DNA of 64,000 nucleotides, taken from Pelagibius sp. Alg239-R121. Its GTDB lineage: Bacteria; Pseudomonadota; Alphaproteobacteria; Kiloniellales; Kiloniellaceae. How positions within the stretch are numbered: the first letter of the stretch is position 1; each line of letters starts with the position of its first letter. The stretch is taken from contig NZ_CAMZOF010000006.1 of assembly GCF_947331435.1 (NCBI RefSeq), positions 1-64,000 of the forward strand, in the 5' to 3' direction. Below the pieces are notes generated by a model. That model searched no databases, was not told where the DNA came from, and saw only the letters and a program-made list of their open reading frames with translations. The position numbers and the translations under genes were made by a program. Below, one piece after another: positions 6,198 through 36,471 of this stretch.

Positions 6198-6236
6198 CCG
6201 GCCGTATTTGAAGCGAGCCCGAGCGGAGAAAATTTG

Positions 6237-7295
6237 ATGTCCAGCGAAACCATAGGAGCAGGTCGGATTGCCTTAGAGCGTGGCCTTCCAAGCCTGGGTT
6301 TCTATGGCACGGGCTTCATTCTGCTGGCCGTTTCAATCCTGGTGGCGGTTTCTCTTGGGGCGGTCACGATCCCCCTGGAGACCGTCTGGGCAATCGTGGC
6401 CAATAAAATTTCTCCTGACACGATCGACGTGACCTGGTCGCGCGGGCGCGAAAACATCATCTGGGAGATCCGCTTTCCGCGGGCGTTGCTCGCCGCACTG
6501 GTGGGGGCCGGGCTTGGCATGGTGGGGGCAGCGCTGCAGGCGGTGACCCGCAACCCGCTCGCCGATCCGCATTTGCTCGGTATTTCTTCCGGGGCGGCAT
6601 TCGGTGCCATTCTGGTGTTGCTGCACACCGGGTTGTTTCTCGGCCTTGCGACCGTACCCTTGTTCGCTTTTTTCGGTGCCCTGGCCGCGACTGCCGTCGT
6701 CGTAACGGTTTCACGACTTGCCGATGCGACCAGCGTTGGGCGCCTCGTCTTGGCCGGTGTTGCGGTCTCCTTCGTGATCATGGCACTGGCCAACCTTTTG
6801 ATCTTTCTGGGCGATCCCAAGGCGACACATACAGTCGTGTTCTGGATGCTCGGCGGATTGGGTCTCGCGCAGTGGAGCCATCTGCTATACCCCCTGGCAG
6901 CACTGGTGATTTGCGGCGCTTATCTGCTGTTCCATGCTGGTGAACTCAACGCCATGACCATCGGCGACGAGACTGCCACGACCCTCGGCATCCAGGTGAC
7001 ACGCTTCCGTTTGGGCGTCTTCATCTGCACGGCATTACTTACCGGCGTACTGGTCGCTTTCTCCGGGACCATCGGCTTCGTCGGGCTTATGATCCCGCAT
7101 ATCGTTCGCTTCATTGTAGGCGGCGACAATGCCAGGGTTCTGCCGCTCTCGGCGCTGGCCGGCGCGATTTTTCTGGTCTGGGCCGATGTTTTTTCCCGCC
7201 TGATTCTGGCACCGGAGGATATGCCGATCGGCATCCTGACGGGTTTTGTCGGCGGTCTGTTTTTTATTTTCTTGCTGGGCCGCAGACGCCCCTGA
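6237..7295 (+). CDS. btuC: FecCD-family ABC transporter permease (BtuC-like)
   Basis: 352 residues from ATG 6237, with GGAG 8 nt upstream; a TTG directly before it is ignored. About ten hydrophobic helices. Family motifs: RFPRALLAALVGAGLGMVGA, TRNPLADPHLLGISSGA and GLMIPHIVRF near the C-terminus, the coupling region to the ATPase. It completes the ATPase-binding protein-permease set, in an order reversed from many btu operons. Confidence 0.9.
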   Translation: MSSETIGAGRIALERGLPSLGFYGTGFILLAVSILVAVSLGAVTIPLETVWAIVANKISPDTIDVTWSRGRENIIWEIRFPRALLAALVGAGLGMVGAALQAVTRNPLADPHLLGISSGAAFGAILVLLHTGLFLGLATVPLFAFFGALAATAVVVTVSRLADATSVGRLVLAGVAVSFVIMALANLLIFLGDPKATHTVVFWMLGGLGLAQWSHLLYPLAALVICGAYLLFHAGELNAMTIGDETATTLGIQVTRFRLGVFICTALLTGVLVAFSGTIGFVGLMIPHIVRFIVGGDNARVLPLSALAGAIFLVWADVFSRLILAPEDMPIGILTGFVGGLFFIFLLGRRRP

Positions 7296-7501
7296 ACCGA
7301 TAGGCTCGAGCGCTTTGCTCAGGCAATCTCCGTGGGGCTTCATTACCGACCCACGGATTTGGCCGAATCTGTTGGTGACCAGCGATTCCGGATGAGGAAA
7401 TTCACCGGAAACCGATCTCAGAATGATATTATCGCTGCTCGGTTCTTTATTCGTTCAATTGAAATCCATCGTTCAGTGCAAGCTAATCGGGGGAATCGTT
7501 A

Positions 7502-9142
7502 ATGGCTTACTATGATCTTGGAACACATTCACGGGCGGTGACAACGTCCTCACCAACCGCCCAGCTCTGGTTCGACCGCGGGCTTGTATGGATCTACGCC
7601 TATAATCACGAAGAGGCGATCGTCTGCTTTCAAAAGGCGCTTGAGGCCGACTCAGACTGCGCCATGGCGCACTGGGGCATCGCCTACGGGATCGGTCCCA
7701 ACTACAACAAGCCCTGGGAAGCATTCGAAGACGACGAGAAACCCGATGCGTTGACTCAGGCCAGGAATGCGGTCGCGCAGGCATCAAAGCTCTTGGACAA
7801 AGTGACGCCGGTCGAAAGAGCGCTGATAGAGGCGATTTCACACCGCTATCCCGAGGATGCCTCCATCGAGGATTTCGCACCCTGGAACGACGCCTTCGCC
7901 GATGCCATGCGCAAGGTCCACGAGGCCCATTCCAATGACCTAGACATCTGTTCCCTCTTCGCCGAGGCCATCATGAACCGGACCCCCTGGCAGCTGTGGG
8001 ACCTGCCGTCCGGCCAGCCAGCTGAGGGCGCGGACACGCTGGAAGCCATCACTGTGCTCGAGACGGCTTTTGATCGGCTTGATGGTGCCTGGGATCATCC
8101 TGGCCTGCTTCACATGTACATTCACCTGATGGAGATGTCGCCGCATCCCGAACGCGCGCTGCGGCAGGGCGACCGCTTGAGCACGCTGGTCCCTGACGCC
8201 GGCCATCTATTGCATATGGCCACTCACATCGACGTGCTCTGCGGCGATTACATGAATGTCGTTTCCAGGAACCATACGGCGATCCTGGCCGACCGTAAGT
8301 TTCTGGAACGGGATGGCGCCGAGAATTTCTATTCCGTCTATCGCTGCCACAATTATCATTTTAAGATCTATGGGGCGATGTTCCTTGGCCAACCTACGCC
8401 GGCGCTCGAGACCGCCGATGAGTTGATCAAGACGCTGCCTGCGGAGACTCTGCGGCCCCTGGCGGATTGGTTCGAAGCCTTCGTTCCCATGAAGCAGCAC
8501 GTTCTGATACGTTTCGGCCGCTGGCGCGACATCCTCGCCCAGAGACTTCCGGAGGACGAGGCGCTCTATTGTGTGACCTTCGCCATGATGCGGTACGCGC
8601 GCACGGTTGCACTTGCCAACACCGGCGATATCGCCGGCGCGGAAACCGAACGGGATTTTTTCCTCGCCGCGCGGGACCGCGTGCCGGAAAGCCGGATGCT
8701 CTTCAACAATACCTGCCGGGATATTCTCCAGGTCGCCGAGCAGATGCTGCTGGGCGAGCTGGAATACCACAAGGGCAATCACGAGGGCGCCTTTGGTCAC
8801 CTGCGCCGCTCGGTCGAGCTGGATGACAACATGCCTTACGACGAACCCTGGGGATGGATGCAGCCAACCCGTCACGCTCTTGGCGCGCTGTTGTTGGAGC
8901 AGCGCCAGTATGACGAGGCGGAAGCGGTTTACCGGGCGGATCTCGGTCTGGACGCAACGCTCAGCCGTGCGTGCCAGCATCCGGGGAATGTCTGGAGCCT
9001 GCACGGCCTGCATGAGTGTCTGACTCAAAGAGGTGAGGCGGTCGAAGCGGCCCTGATCAAGCTGCAACTCGACAAGGCGATCGCCCGCGCAGAGGTGCCC
9101 ATCAAAGCCTCCTGCTTCTGCCGCCGAAAGGCCGCCGCTTAG
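7502..9142 (+). CDS. Tetratricopeptide-repeat protein, function unknown
   Basis: 546 residues without signal peptide or membrane segment. The N-terminus contains TPR-like helices (LWFDRGLVWIYAYNHEEAIV, then AMAHWGIAYG), and further pairs occur around HLLHMATHID and the C-terminal MPYDEPWGW/ALGALLLEQRQYDEAEAVYR. The pattern resembles widespread bacterial cytoplasmic TPR proteins of unknown role. GGGGGAA ribosome site before ATG. It stands alone, 206 bp after the B12 permease gene and 73 bp before a desaturase gene, so context gives no function. Confidence 0.75.
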   Translation: MAYYDLGTHSRAVTTSSPTAQLWFDRGLVWIYAYNHEEAIVCFQKALEADSDCAMAHWGIAYGIGPNYNKPWEAFEDDEKPDALTQARNAVAQASKLLDKVTPVERALIEAISHRYPEDASIEDFAPWNDAFADAMRKVHEAHSNDLDICSLFAEAIMNRTPWQLWDLPSGQPAEGADTLEAITVLETAFDRLDGAWDHPGLLHMYIHLMEMSPHPERALRQGDRLSTLVPDAGHLLHMATHIDVLCGDYMNVVSRNHTAILADRKFLERDGAENFYSVYRCHNYHFKIYGAMFLGQPTPALETADELIKTLPAETLRPLADWFEAFVPMKQHVLIRFGRWRDILAQRLPEDEALYCVTFAMMRYARTVALANTGDIAGAETERDFFLAARDRVPESRMLFNNTCRDILQVAEQMLLGELEYHKGNHEGAFGHLRRSVELDDNMPYDEPWGWMQPTRHALGALLLEQRQYDEAEAVYRADLGLDATLSRACQHPGNVWSLHGLHECLTQRGEAVEAALIKLQLDKAIARAEVPIKASCFCRRKAAA

Positions 9143-31766: not shown

Positions 31767-32600
31767 ATGTCTGATACTAAGGAGCTTACACGGCACTACA
31801 GTCGAAGCGATCTGCTCGGGGCGATCAAACGTGGACTTGAAGCACTGGGTAAAAAGCGGGAGACAGCCACACTCGATGATCTGGCACTGGTTGACGAGTT
31901 TCACGTTGGCGGGCGGCAGGCGTCAATCGAGTTGCTCGACCAGATGGATGTGTCGGCGGATCAATTTGTACTCGACATCGGTTGTGGCCTCGGCGGGCCT
32001 GCGCGTTTCGCGGCCGATTACTACGGCTGCAAAGTGGCGGGTGTCGATCTGACGGAAGACTATGTGACTGCGGGGCGGGTGTTGTGCAACTGGGTCGGGC
32101 TCAGCGACAAAGTCTCACTCCGGCAGGGCAGCGCCTTAAACATGCCGCTCGTTGATGGAACCTTCGACGCTGCCTACATGATGCACGTGGGCATGAATAT
32201 CGCGGACAAGGCTGCGCTCTGTAGTGAAGTCTACCGCCTTTTACGGCCGGGTGCCCGTTTTGGTATTTACGATGTCATGCGTGTAGGAGAGGGGGAACTG
32301 ACATTTCCCGTGCCTTGGTCATCCGTGCCGGAAACCAGTTTTGTCGCTCGCCCGCAGGAATATAAAGACGCCCTGGCGGCCGCCGGCTTCAAGATCGTCG
32401 CGGAGCGTAACCGGCGTGACTTTGCGTTGGATTTTTTTGAGAAACAGCGTGTGAGGCTCGCTGCGTCCGACGGTCTGCCCCCGTTGAGCCTTCACATTGT
32501 GATGGGGGAAAACACTGGCGAAAAACTACAGAATCTCGTTACCAACATCGCGGAAAACCGGGTCGCTCCGGTTGAGGTGATTGCACGGAAGATTGCATAG
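31767..32600 (+). CDS. SAM-dependent methyltransferase in the TRAP operon
   Basis: 277 residues. SAM-binding motif I is VLDIGCGLGGPARF, followed by GVDLTEDYV and DGTFDAAYMMHVGMNI; the C-terminal half resembles sarcosine/phosphoethanolamine-type methyltransferases (YRLLRPGARFGIYDVMR). It starts 15 bp after dctM, so it is co-transcribed with the transporter. Whether it methylates the imported compound is unknown. Confidence 0.85.
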   Translation: MSDTKELTRHYSRSDLLGAIKRGLEALGKKRETATLDDLALVDEFHVGGRQASIELLDQMDVSADQFVLDIGCGLGGPARFAADYYGCKVAGVDLTEDYVTAGRVLCNWVGLSDKVSLRQGSALNMPLVDGTFDAAYMMHVGMNIADKAALCSEVYRLLRPGARFGIYDVMRVGEGELTFPVPWSSVPETSFVARPQEYKDALAAAGFKIVAERNRRDFALDFFEKQRVRLAASDGLPPLSLHIVMGENTGEKLQNLVTNIAENRVAPVEVIARKIA

Positions 32601-32647: not shown

Positions 32648-33211
32648 TCAGGCTGCAGTGGGTTTGCGGGTCCAGAAATAGTCCAGCGACAATAATCCCG
32701 GTCCGCGGACAACGAGGTAGATCAGTAGAAATACCCAGAGGCTGCGCTGATCCACGATCACGGAGTCCGAGAAACGGTCAAAGAGCGCGCCTGTGGTTTT
32801 TTCGTCGGCCCCATGAAAAGCGACATCGACAAAACTCTGTACAGTGACGAAGCCGATCATGCCGATTGCTGCGGCACGAGTGAAGAGCCCCAACACAATC
32901 AGGATTGGCAGGATGAACTCGCTGTAGGTGCCGGCCGCGACGATGATGTCGTAGGGAAAGAAGGGAACCTGCGCGGCGTCGTAATCGAATTGTTCGACGA
33001 CACTGGGCAGGATCTGGAAGTAGGCGTTGTCTGTGATCGTGAAGAAGCCCAGAAAGCCATCACCAACCTTTGTCAGGGCGGAATTGAACAGATATACGAA
33101 CAGGACGCCGGCAAAAACGAAGCGGGCGGCGAGACCGAGGAACCAGTCTTCCAACGCACGCTGAATCTTTTCGAAGATGAGATTGTACCATCCGGCAAGT
33201 CGGGAAATCAT
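32648..33211 (-). CDS. DoxX family membrane protein of the bufferin locus
   Basis: 187 residues with four predicted helices; the FAGVLFVYLFNSALTKVGDG start and LPILIVLGLFTRAAAIGMIGFV segment are DoxX-type. It follows bufC by 29 bp. DoxX proteins commonly accompany DUF692/DUF2282 gene sets, probably supporting redox or export steps, but their role is not established. Confidence 0.85.
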   Translation of the reverse strand: MISRLAGWYNLIFEKIQRALEDWFLGLAARFVFAGVLFVYLFNSALTKVGDGFLGFFTITDNAYFQILPSVVEQFDYDAAQVPFFPYDIIVAAGTYSEFILPILIVLGLFTRAAAIGMIGFVTVQSFVDVAFHGADEKTTGALFDRFSDSVIVDQRSLWVFLLIYLVVRGPGLLSLDYFWTRKPTAA

Positions 33212-33240
33212 AGCACTCTATCCTTCCTTGGGGTTTGTCG

Positions 33241-34011
33241 TTAATCGTGGTTTTTGGTGATGCCAATCACGGCACCGAGTTGGAAAAGTCCTTCCAGGTG
33301 ATTGGCGAGATCGAAAGTCTGCGAAATTTCCGCGGCCAAGCCGGCGGCTTCTCCTAATGTCGCGCCTTCACGCAATGCCTTGATAAAGTTGTAGCCGTCA
33401 GAAGGTAGGCGGCGGGTGTCGACGTCGAAGGCCGGCCGAACAACAATCACCTGCTCGGGTGCATCCATCTTAACTGCGTCCTGGGGGGCTAGGCCGGACG
33501 TTGCAGCCCAGAGCGAGAAGAGAGGCCAGCGAGACGAGAAGAGTTCCAGTGAAGGATGTAGCTGAAATGTGACCGCGCCGAGTTGATCCGGCCGTATCTC
33601 GGCAAGGCTATCGATGCTGATCGCTGTCCGGTCAGCGGCATGGTAGGCCGACAAGCGAGCCCATTCCAGCCGGGCGACGTCACCCAGATAAGGGATTGAA
33701 GCTGCCGGCGGAAAGCGATCCAGAAAGTCGCCAAAGGTTTTGCCGTAGAGAAACATGAGCGGCGAACGCGGTGGCTCCAGGTCGATGTAAACCCGTGCCG
33801 TTGCCTTGAAGAATTCGTCGCCCACCAGATGCAGGACAGCCGGAAAGCTGGCTTTCAAAGCTTCGATCAGGCTCGCAACAACGTTGTTGCGGTAAACGTC
33901 GAACCGACGTTTGGGCAGCGTTCCGCCGCGCGCCTTTAAACTATCGGGTGGCGGCGCAGAGGGATCCCGCAAGCCGGCGATGAACTCGGATTGGATTTCA
34001 GAGAGAGACAC
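33241..34011 (-). CDS. bufC: BufC/HvfC-type partner protein (DUF2063, putative DNA-binding domain)
   Basis: 256 residues. The N-terminal domain ([48 protein letters not shown]) is the DUF2063 domain that pairs with DUF692 enzymes in RiPP loci, where it presents the precursor. It overlaps bufB by 14 nt, indicating coupled translation and a complex. The DNA-binding label in databases is historical and probably misleading. Confidence 0.88.
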
Positions 34012-34903
34012 GATTCTGCTCCGGAGTGCTTAACGCTGCGTCTGTGGCAACGAGAAGACGATCCGCGGTTTGGGCTTCGCCGAAAAGCCTCTGCCAACTG
34101 GGTACGTCATTGTCCCATTCGATCAGTGTCGGCAGGTGGCCGGTGCGTGCGATCACGCGGCTGAACAGAGCCCAGACCGGGTCGGCCACGGCCCGGTCAT
34201 GTGCGTCGATCAAGAGCAGTGCGCCGTCGTCGTCGAGGTCTTCCGCGTGGCCGCCAAGATGGATCTCGCCCACTTGCTCGAGCGGGAAGGCATCCAGATA
34301 GACTTCTGGTGAGTAACCGTGATTGCTGGCCGATACGAAAGCGTTGTTGACGTCGAGAAGTAATCCGCAGCCGGTCCGCCTAGCGAGGTTGGTCAGGAAC
34401 TCGATTTCGCTCATGCTGCTTTCGGCAAAGGTGACATAGGTTGAGGGATTTTCGAGCAGCATCTGCCGACCGAGGGTTTCCTGAACCTGATCTATATGCT
34501 CGCTGCAGCGTGCGAGTGCTTCCTCGGTGTATGGCACCGGCAGCAGGTCGTTGAAGAAAAAATCGTCATGAGTCGACCAGGCCAGGTGTTCGCTGAAGAG
34601 ACCGGGTTCATAGCGCTGGTTTAGCTCTTTCAGACGTGAGAGATGATCTTTGTCAAGCGGCCGATCCGCGCCGATGGACAGGCCCACGCCATGTAAGGAA
34701 AGAGGGTAATCCCGGCGAATAGCCTCAAGATAGCGGTGAGGGGGACCGCCATCGCCCATGTAGTTCTCAGCGTGAACCTCAAACCATCCGATATCCGGGC
34801 GATCCTCGATAATCGCGTCGTAGTGAGCGGCCTTAAGACCGACACCGGCGCGTCCCGGAATCCTTGCGGGGAGGGTGGTTGGGGTATTTGCCGGGATTTT
34901 CAT
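33998..34903 (-). CDS. bufB: Multinuclear non-heme iron oxidase (DUF692/MNIO), bufferin-modifying BufB
   Basis: 301 residues from ATG 34903 with AAGAGGT upstream; a GTG at 34924 lies in a hairpin and is unlikely. Metal-binding motifs typical of DUF692: [63 protein letters not shown] and IEWDND. Related enzymes convert cysteines of precursor peptides to oxazolone/thioamide or thiooxazole groups. Neighbouring precursor and partner genes make the assignment strong. Confidence 0.92.
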
Positions 34904-34923
34904 GGGATACCTCTTAAGAGACA

Positions 34924-34950
34924 CGAAGGCCGGAAAAAATCCGGCCTTCG
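34924..34950 (-). terminator. Intergenic hairpin between bufA and bufB
   Basis: A perfect 10-bp stem (CGAAGGCCGG/CCGGCCTTCG, 34924-34933 with 34941-34950) with a 7-nt loop lies between the precursor and enzyme genes. The following sequence has only a weak T-tract, so it is likely a partial terminator or mRNA-stability element that lets precursor mRNA exceed enzyme mRNA. Confidence 0.7.
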
Positions 34951-34982
34951 GTTCATGGCCATCCTAGTTCATGGCCATCCTA
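34951..34982. repeat. 16-bp tandem duplication downstream of bufA
   Basis: gttcatggccatccta occurs twice head to tail (34951-34966, 34967-34982), between the hairpin and the bufA stop codon. Confidence 0.9.
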
Positions 34983-34990
34983 AAAGAAGA

Positions 34991-35320
34991 TCAGCCGGTC
35001 GGGAGATCGCGCTCGATGGCTTCCAGAGAGCCCTGACGATCACCCGGCAGTTCGTAACTGGCTTCCTGACCTTCGGCACCATATTTTGTGCAGTCGCCTT
35101 TGGGGACCAGCGTCCAGGCGTTGCCTTGGTAATCAATTGTCGAGGTTCCGGCACAGGTGGTGCCTGGACCGGCGGCACAGTCGTTCTGACCGGCGAGGGA
35201 GACACCGTAGCACTTTTCCTTGCCTGCCGCGCTTGCGGGCGCGGAGACTGATGCGGAAAGCGCCACAGCAACAGCACCGGCGATCACTGCCGACGACATG
35301 ACTTTGGTCTTGGTACTCAT
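34991..35320 (-). CDS. bufA: Bufferin-type RiPP precursor BufA (DUF2282)
   Basis: 109 residues: a signal peptide of about 32 residues (ending ASAAG) and a core with four cysteines, C37 (KCYGV), C48 (NDCAAG), C56 (TTCAGT) and C77 (GDCTKY). The [15 protein letters not shown] and WTLVPKG segments mark the DUF2282 bufferin-1 group. In characterised members some cysteines become thiooxazoles that bind copper in the periplasm and protect against copper stress; the same role is inferred here. First gene of bufA-bufB-bufC-doxX. Confidence 0.92.
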
Positions 35321-35372
35321 CTTATTAATTCCTATTCAGTGAGTCTGGCTATACATCAGTGGTTTGTGGAGG

Positions 35373-35411
35373 ACCGCCAGTCTCTGACCTAGCAAAGGTG
35401 AGACTGACGGT
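35373..35411 (-). terminator. Hairpin between the YHS gene and bufA
   Basis: ACCGCCAGTCTC (35373-35384) pairs with GAGACTGACGGT (35400-35411) with one mismatch. It separates the YHS gene from bufA on the minus strand, suggesting that bufA has its own promoter in the next 50 bp. Confidence 0.5.
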
Positions 35412-35422
35412 TATCGGCTACT

Positions 35423-35448
35423 CGAGTTAGCTGCCCGAGTTAGCTGCC
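35423..35448. repeat. 13-bp tandem duplication at the YHS stop codon
   Basis: cgagttagctgcc occurs twice head to tail; the copy at 35436-35448 contains the stop codon of the YHS gene. Confidence 0.85.
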
Positions 35449-35982
35449 CTGGGGGGCCGGCTTGGAATAGGTGCCATCGTTGGCGTTGATCGCCTTCCAG
35501 CTCTTGGAAGAAGCGTCCTTCGATTCCAACTTGGTCCATTTGGTTCCGGCTGACGAGATATGACCGTTGACGTCTTCTTCCCAGAACCCAACCACGTTCG
35601 GCGTGATGTTCAGGAAAAGCTTGCCATCGACAATGCGCCAGAGATTGGGATTGCCGGGTACCTTGCCGCCCTGAGCGACACCATAGGCGCAGTGGCCATC
35701 GAACTGCGGAGCGTATTTGGCTGGATCAGCCAGGAATTTTGCGCGGTTTGCTTCCGATGAGAAGGCCCAGACCGAACCGTTGTAATCGGCAGTAATACTG
35801 GCGTTGCCCGGCACTGCCTCAGGCTGCTTCTGGCCGACCGGCACCTGTTCAAGGTCGAAGTAGGCGACGGGGTCGTAGCCGCTGAGTGCGTACTTGGATT
35901 CATCGACATACTGCTGACCGGCAAAGGCGGAGCTCGCTGCCATTACGGCAAAAGCGGACGAAAGCATCAGGGAGCGTAACAT
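35440..35982 (-). CDS. Exported YHS-domain protein
   Basis: 180 residues with a signal peptide (MLRSLMLSSAFAVMAASSAFAGQ). The YHS-type region is visible as YALSGYDPVAYF and VWAFSSEANRAKFLADPAKYAPQFDGHCAYGVAQG, with one conserved cysteine. YHS domains occur in copper-transport proteins and in periplasmic proteins of unknown role. It lies upstream of bufA in the same direction; a link with metal handling is inferred. Confidence 0.8.
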   Translation of the reverse strand: MLRSLMLSSAFAVMAASSAFAGQQYVDESKYALSGYDPVAYFDLEQVPVGQKQPEAVPGNASITADYNGSVWAFSSEANRAKFLADPAKYAPQFDGHCAYGVAQGGKVPGNPNLWRIVDGKLFLNITPNVVGFWEEDVNGHISSAGTKWTKLESKDASSKSWKAINANDGTYSKPAPQGS

Positions 35983-36471
35983 GTAATCCTCCAGAACGTT
36001 TGAGCTCTAATTTGGGAATGGTTTCTGCTGCTGAATTGGCGCCGTTTGTACAGAGCTTCAACGCACGGTGAAGACACATGGGCGTGAGCAAAGGATCACT
36101 TCTGCTCACGAAAACGTTGACGAGGCGTTACTTGTTAATGCGGCGGAAAATGATCGCGGAGCAATCACATCGAGTCGCGTTACCGTGCGCCTACTAGTCT
36201 GTGGCCGCATCCAATCAAGCGTGACAGCAGCGTTATGCTGCATTTAAGGTAAATTCAATAAGTCCTCCGCTGTTTTAACCGAAGTCCCGCCGTACATATT
36301 TTTGCGTCTGTGCAAGGCGGCAAAATCTGCCCGGAAAAATTTGCCGGATCCCCCTCCATTGGGCAAATCTTTCCTAGCAGAAATAGGCAAATATTACCTG
36401 CAGCCTATAAGGGAAATGTGTAACACATTGTAATATAAAGAGAAAAAAATTGTTCCGTCGAAGTCGGTTTT
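35983..36471. promoter_or_regulatory. Non-coding region with FlbD-like enhancer cluster
   Basis: No gene is seen in this stretch. Between 36316 and 36392 the motif GGCAAA recurs: GGCGGCAAAATCTGCCCGG (36316-36334), overlapping the near-palindrome CCGGAAAAATTTGCCGG (36331-36347), then GGGCAAAT (36361-36368) and AGGCAAAT (36385-36392). These resemble the ftr sites bound by FlbD in Caulobacter and lie about 80-155 bp upstream of the sigma54 promoter, a normal enhancer distance. The first 100 bp should carry the YHS promoter. Confidence 0.6.

Follow-up and report, generated by a model that had tools for sequence, protein, structure and literature searches.

A predicted bufferin operon in Pelagibius sp. 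Alg239-R121 and its probable additional partner, an exported single-cysteine YHS protein

Results

Gene content of the locus

The DNA analyzed here is a stretch of 64,000 nucleotides from Pelagibius sp. Alg239-R121 (contig NZ_CAMZOF010000006.1, positions 1 to 64,000), referred to below as the window. Its minus strand carries, from 35982 to 32648, the genes YHS, bufA, bufB, bufC and doxX in that order (Table 1). An initial annotation, made from the letters of the stretch, had described them as a complete bufferin locus adjoined by an exported YHS protein. Pfam and NCBIfam models placed all five genes where that annotation had put them, on the same strand and in the same order, and the assignment to the Buf1 type was upheld by Pfam models above cut-off for the precursor, the MNIO oxidase and the partner, together with the NCBIfam BufB model. 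The E-values for precursor, MNIO and partner (1e-23 to 1e-118) leave no room for chance as an explanation of these sequence matches. Judging from its genes, the locus is almost certainly a bufferin operon.

Table 1. Features of the locus, with positions in the window
Feature	Positions	Strand	Basis and remarks
Conserved upstream element	36093..36121	-	139 nt ahead of the YHS start; aligned in 13/13 loci; matrix scan
YHS gene, exported YHS (seleno)protein family member, 180 aa, signal peptide 1-21	35440..35982	-	NF041384, 124 bits (cut-off 70)
bufA, Buf1 (DUF2282) precursor, 109 aa	34991..35320	-	PF10048, 82.1 bits (cut-off 22.4); alignments
bufA signal peptide, residues 1-31 (predicted)	35228..35320	-	sequence shows a hydrophobic stretch and A-S-A at 29-31
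bufA core, Cys37 to Cys77	35090..35212	-	all four Cys kept throughout 13 close and 32 wider precursors
bufA C-terminal tail, ELPGDR.GSLEAI.RDLP type	34994..35089	-	seen across a larger Buf1 group, with or without YHS
Hairpin, 11 bp, in the bufA-bufB gap	34924..34950	-	z -5.76 for the gap; frequent also in Buf1 loci without YHS
bufB, MNIO oxidase	33998..34903	-	NF050167 (MNIO_BufB), 394 bits (cut-off 310); likelier ATG start
bufC, DUF2063 partner	33241..34011	-	PF09836, 86.6 bits (cut-off 27.2)
doxX, DoxX-like membrane protein	32648..33211	-	PF07681; hydrophobic stretches

The precursor has the signal peptide (judged by eye and from hydropathy) and the four core cysteines that had been ascribed to it. 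Residues 37, 48, 56 and 77 are its only cysteines, and all lie downstream of the Sec-type signal peptide. The BufB protein also matches PF05114 (360.3 bits, cut-off 25); its closest solved structure is 3bww (E 3.9e-43), and it has 28 polar residues common to at least 90% of 109 BufB sequences. Its start is more likely the ATG at 34903, which is preceded by AGAGG and gives 301 aa, than the GTG at 34924 (308 aa). The solved DUF2063-RRE protein was not matched by the BufC sequence among PDB chains. DoxX genes are frequent in Buf1 loci though not obligatory. Orthologues of doxX occupied the same position in 12/12 fetched YHS-linked loci, and against the NCBIfam HvfX model the window protein reached 25.9 bits, below the cut-off of 80.

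The initial annotation had oxidase, partner and DoxX genes following in order with coupled translation. The order stands. The coupling does so in part: bufB and bufC are the sole overlapping pair (14 nt), and coupled translation therefore holds for these two genes only, the other junctions having gaps of 119 nt (YHS-bufA), 87 nt (bufA-bufB) and 29 nt (bufC-doxX).

The YHS protein

Besides its family model, the YHS protein matches PF04945 (31.6 bits, cut-off 30.3). Its signal peptide ends in A-F-A at residues 19-21, and it has a single cysteine, Cys98, which is preceded by His97 in a GHC motif (residues 96-98). D95, G96, H97 and C98 were invariant across an alignment of 66 YHS sequences, and proteins with this motif are called the DGHC subfamily here. 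Family NF041384 takes in a selenoprotein with the motif GxU (PMC13188914), so that C98 occupies the selenocysteine position. The Pelagibius genome (8.0 Mb in 48 contigs) has six YHS_seleno genes and a second Buf1 locus; in the five other YHS proteins, H97 is replaced by Y, Y, Y, F and A. The best AlphaFold2 (AF2) model of the window protein had a mean pLDDT of 88.9, and structure searches with it returned weak matches to YHS-like stretches only. Such features are compatible with a role as reactive thiol, as metal ligand, or as both. To our knowledge, no activity has been assigned to the NF041384 family, and our literature searches found no characterized member of the family or of its DGHC subfamily.

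YHS genes upstream of bufA in other genomes

Among the loci examined, 44 arrangements in Alpha- and Gammaproteobacteria had a YHS gene immediately ahead of bufA, 37 of them with a DGHC protein and seven with other YHS types. Among 58 genomes, Pelagibius and its relatives, BufB was present in 23, with 30 matches above cut-off, and YHS in 40; 13 of the 30 BufB genes, including that of the window, were preceded at 0.6-0.7 kb by a YHS match in the same orientation. The order YHS-bufA-bufB-bufC-doxX was kept in all 12 other linked regions. Named genomes were then scanned with the 13 YHS proteins. Among the best 80 of the 327 relatives obtained, 30 preceded a buf set in the same orientation, eight of them in genomes already counted, and two more (L082 and L104) stood beside a buf set in another orientation. 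Linked loci span several alphaproteobacterial families and the Granulosicoccaceae.

A class-wide search with 13 precursors against 385 genomes found Buf1 in 134 of them. Sixty loci were taken from the listed matches, mostly in rank order with some skipped, and are no random sample; nine had YHS directly upstream of bufA, two of DGHC type and seven of GG[FYW]C type (one of the seven, L171, had no bufB in the fetched stretch). Because GG[FYW]C as well as DGHC proteins are encoded there, the position upstream of bufA is occupied by more than one kind of YHS.

In a tree of 109 BufB proteins, the presence of YHS requires at least seven changes. A second tree, of 102 YHS proteins, unites the 87 DGHC rows with support (SH-aLRT 98), 37 of them in the operon arrangement and 50 outside it; at least seven changes between the two states are needed within this group, and 11 over all rows. 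Both are quick trees with many weak branches. Both place locus L054, which comes from a record named Mesoflavibacter (Bacteroidota), together with an alphaproteobacterial locus, and the record is probably misnamed. At two further loci, L040 and L041, frames of about 499 aa match MNIO weakly (about 112 bits); a YHS gene of another type lies 9 to 13 kb away.

Co-occurrence of DGHC YHS and Buf1 within genomes

The DGHC subfamily was set apart by score in the class sample: 11 genomes reached at least 247 bits, and the next one 161. Buf1 was present in 10/11 of these genomes and in 124/374 of the others (Fisher p 1.6e-4, ignoring kinship). The 11 genomes represent seven families, six of them with Buf1, and in seven of the 11 the YHS gene adjoins bufA. 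In G250 the match from the class search has stops, yet the fetched DNA carries a DUF2282 gene with bufB, bufC and doxX.

The relation extends to genomes in which the DGHC gene stands apart from any buf set. In 20 such genomes, hand-picked from 48, MNIO was found elsewhere in all 20 (in G438 as a short fragment only) and DUF2282 in 19. The neighborhoods of standalone YHS genes had no named copper gene, as judged from open reading frame lists of four loci without profile annotation and from two annotated plasmids. The tie between YHS and Buf1 across genomes is strong but not absolute. The YHS protein had been put forward as a candidate extra component of the system, and this proposal is strengthened by the 44 arrangements in several lineages and by the co-occurrence at genome level.

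Several observations weigh against this partnership or against the identification of the locus. Twelve of the first 13 linked loci belong to the window's own family and one to another family of the order, so that shared descent accounts for part of the linkage. Within the fetched flanks, 48 of the best 80 YHS relatives had no buf set, and 51 of the 60 precursor-seeded Buf1 loci had no adjacent YHS gene. In genome G321, for which completeness is rated at 100%, a DGHC YHS gene is present but nothing matched MNIO. On the bufferin side, DoxX scores barely above its cut-off (24.4 against 23.6 bits), and BufA falls below that of the BufA2 model NF050166 (21.8 against 60 bits), with four cysteines where Buf2 expects six or twelve. 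The latter is expected of a Buf1 protein and is no positive test for it. As a separate observation, the genes around YHS in G321 resemble those of Thalassospira.

Some of these points would suit a YHS gene that is a passenger, encoding an exported protein of unrelated role and kept beside bufA through descent and shared expression: most linked loci are related, standalone YHS genes are common, and G321 keeps the gene with no MNIO. Such a passenger does not sit easily with the different YHS types found in the same position in other lineages, with the repeated changes of YHS presence on the BufB tree, or with MNIO in every standalone genome sampled. We consider it unlikely.

A more serious alternative concerns the function of the protein itself. 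YHS could be a general periplasmic thiol-redox protein of the monothiol reductase or peroxidase type, perhaps working with DoxX against oxidative damage during copper stress, with no contact to copper or bufferin. A relative has selenocysteine at the cysteine position, and selenoproteins are described as mostly oxidoreductases (PMC2398784); genes of the same type also stand alone and persist without MNIO in G321. This role by itself does not account for the tie to Buf1, seen in 44 loci and at genome level, and in the other five YHS proteins of Pelagibius the cysteine is not preceded by histidine. This explanation is less likely than not.

The third alternative is that YHS is a second substrate of BufB/BufC, oxidation of its lone cysteine giving a folded protein with a copper-binding group. 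In favor are the signal peptide, the one invariant cysteine, the position ahead of bufA and the co-occurrence with MNIO; according to a survey, MNIO enzymes could modify proteins and in some cases perhaps have more than one substrate (PMC12452194). Against it, the cysteine is kept in the other five YHS proteins of Pelagibius with no buf neighbor in the fetched flanks, a selenocysteine form exists in the family, and the YHS gene of G321 occurs with no MNIO. A second-substrate role is very improbable.

Control of the operon

The initial annotation had seen no copper regulator or ECF (extracytoplasmic function) sigma factor adjacent to the locus and had left its control open. For the ECF/NrsF type this holds in scans of both window and genome: two query proteins found no ECF sigma or NrsF homologue in the 64-kb window, and genome-wide scans for the NrsF family gave no match in Pelagibius and, with Pelagibius included, in 55 of the 58 genomes. 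Only some Buf1 loci carry ECF sigma and NrsF genes, and the pair is not required of them. What can be added is a lead, the conserved element upstream of YHS (Table 1), which reads approximately TCAC-N6-GTG, followed by CGTGATTTG in the sister genus. Allowing up to three mismatches, the 31-base sister-genus pattern occurred once per genome, ahead of YHS, in 7/7 genomes of that genus; it was not found in three genomes tried of the window's genus. With a matrix built from the 13 loci, 7/24 other linked loci exceeded the 99% level of resampled sequence and 17/24 fell below it; for standalone loci the counts were 17/49 (14 being near-copies from Thalassospira and kin) and 32/49. The element is a candidate promoter or operator. 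It was also considered as an ECF promoter and rejected as such: the spacing is similar, yet the window's genus has not conserved the second block, and a SigF-type consensus pattern matched in one standalone locus only.

ECF or NrsF genes lay near 14 of the 60 precursor-seeded loci, one of these with YHS. Over all loci they accompanied 1/44 with YHS against 13/69 without (Fisher p 0.008; a recount puts the second total at 68), and in the 60 loci alone 1/9 against 13/51 (p 0.67). No mutual exclusion of YHS and ECF/NrsF is claimed from these figures, as flank lengths differ and loci are related.

Other features and neighboring genes

Two features looked at first like marks of YHS loci. The C-terminal tail of BufA was present in 13/13 linked and 0/18 unlinked precursors of the first set and seemed specific. 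It failed as a marker in the wider set, where YHS was adjacent in 6/25 tail-type loci (chosen as those in which the precursor profile matched through to its end) and in 3/35 others. The hairpin between bufA and bufB was strong in 13/13 linked loci (z -2.7 to -6.0) but is common elsewhere, and was set aside as a general Buf1 feature; with a looser shuffle, stems of at least 9 bp were found in 28/35 DGHC loci, 3/6 loci with other YHS types and 40/64 loci without YHS. A direct repeat about 15 bases long (ttcatggccatccta) adjoins it in the same gap (34950-34984).

The operon is flanked in the window by a flagellin gene upstream and by a TRAP transporter and a methyltransferase on the plus strand downstream. 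The methyltransferase gene (31767-32600) is convergent with doxX and kept in place in G001, G002 and G003; its top NCBIfam score, 63 bits, is below the cut-off of 155. The second Buf1 locus of the Pelagibius genome lies at about 92-95 kb of contig G000:C3 (L033, G000:C3:86000-100000, 6232-8917) and has bufA, bufB and bufC without YHS. Its DoxX gene is on the opposite strand with the frame interrupted into two pieces, and is open in G001 and G002 (L037 and L038). The second locus of G003, a member of the window's genus (L036, G003:C10, 5850-6420), has bufB and bufC with no DUF2282 frame found ahead, and likewise none was found ahead of bufB/bufC in G002 (L038).

Discussion

What was observed directly is the gene content and order of the locus, the conserved residues of its proteins and the tie between YHS and Buf1 across genomes. 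On balance, it seems probable that the locus is a Buf1-type bufferin operon with a co-inherited exported single-cysteine YHS component. That YHS is a functional partner of the bufferin set is, taken by itself, quite likely. What it would do there is harder to say: from its residues, a relay of Cu(I) is a tentative proposal, falling somewhat short of an even chance, and thiol-redox chemistry is slightly less likely still.

The chemistry of the bufferin is carried over by homology. Other Buf1 proteins are described as having their central cysteines modified and the outer ones joined in a disulfide, with the resulting thiooxazoles sequestering periplasmic copper (PMC12452194), and cysteine modification, disulfide and copper chelation should apply here by analogy. 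BufB with BufC would oxidize the central cysteines of BufA, 48 and 56, to thiooxazoles in the cytoplasm. BufA would be exported by Sec, a disulfide would form between the outer cysteines 37 and 77, and the mature product would keep excess copper in the periplasm. YHS would be exported in parallel, and its His97-Cys98 pair may relay Cu(I) to the bufferin or away from it, or perform thiol chemistry around it, with DoxX located in the membrane. It would be a long shot to suppose further that the DGHC protein is a dedicated Buf1 partner whose Cys98 is also oxidized by BufB/BufC, so that this one enzyme pair would make two copper-binding products, a peptide and a folded protein.

Copper itself could be the wrong metal, and the operon could buffer another, such as gold or mercury. 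Two papers mention MerC-bufferin fusions and gold-induced gig genes (PMC12452194 and PMC10304878). The bufferins characterized so far are reported to act on copper (PMC12452194), and the window holds no pointer to another metal, which makes this alternative improbable.

The bufferin set itself is of an already known kind, and Buf1 loci have been grouped as captophorins (PMC13097082). The YHS component was found in no paper searched. YHS is mentioned zero times in the main text of PMC12452194, PMC10304878, PMC12538549 and PMC13097082. Literature searches combining YHS with bufferin or DUF2282 gave no relevant paper, subscription papers being mostly outside their reach, and a search combining YHS with operon and metal found none. 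The MNIO survey gives the core of bufferin loci as precursor, MNIO, DUF2063 and DoxX, reports further conserved genes as extremely infrequent, and admitted unlisted genes only at 10 bp or less from a listed gene (PMC12452194). The gap between YHS and bufA is 119 bp in the window and mostly 13 to 166 bp elsewhere, so such a rule would usually omit YHS. It is probably an overlooked partner of the bufferin system. If the partnership is true, an exported single-cysteine protein of unknown role acquires a pathway and becomes a candidate for copper transfer to or from bufferin. The upstream element may serve as a starting point on control in genomes that lack the ECF/NrsF pair.

Among known systems, the locus is close to Buf1 loci such as that of Caulobacter vibrioides, with which it shares the DUF2282 precursor (Sec signal peptide and four cysteines), the MNIO, the DUF2063 partner and DoxX in the same order. 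It differs in being headed by an exported YHS gene and in having no ECF sigma/NrsF pair nearby. The gigPABT operon of Cupriavidus metallidurans likewise joins a small periplasmic four-cysteine protein with MNIO-like, DUF2063 and DoxX-like genes, and is copper-induced there; unlike the locus of the window, it adjoins genes for an ECF sigma factor and an anti-sigma factor, and YHS goes unmentioned in the main text of its description (PMC10304878). Relative to the YHS (seleno)protein family NF041384, the window protein scores above cut-off with cysteine at the selenocysteine position, and its subfamily is set apart by DGHC, with histidine ahead of the cysteine. A further counterpart is on a 169-kb plasmid of Thalassobaculum sp. 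OXR-137 (NZ_CP139716.1; L189, 7947-12510), an isolate from a hydrothermal vent plume. There YHS, DUF2282, DUF692, DUF2063-type and DoxX genes lie on one strand in the order of the window; unlike in the window, ECF sigma and NrsF genes follow, and the plasmid is typed as mobilizable.

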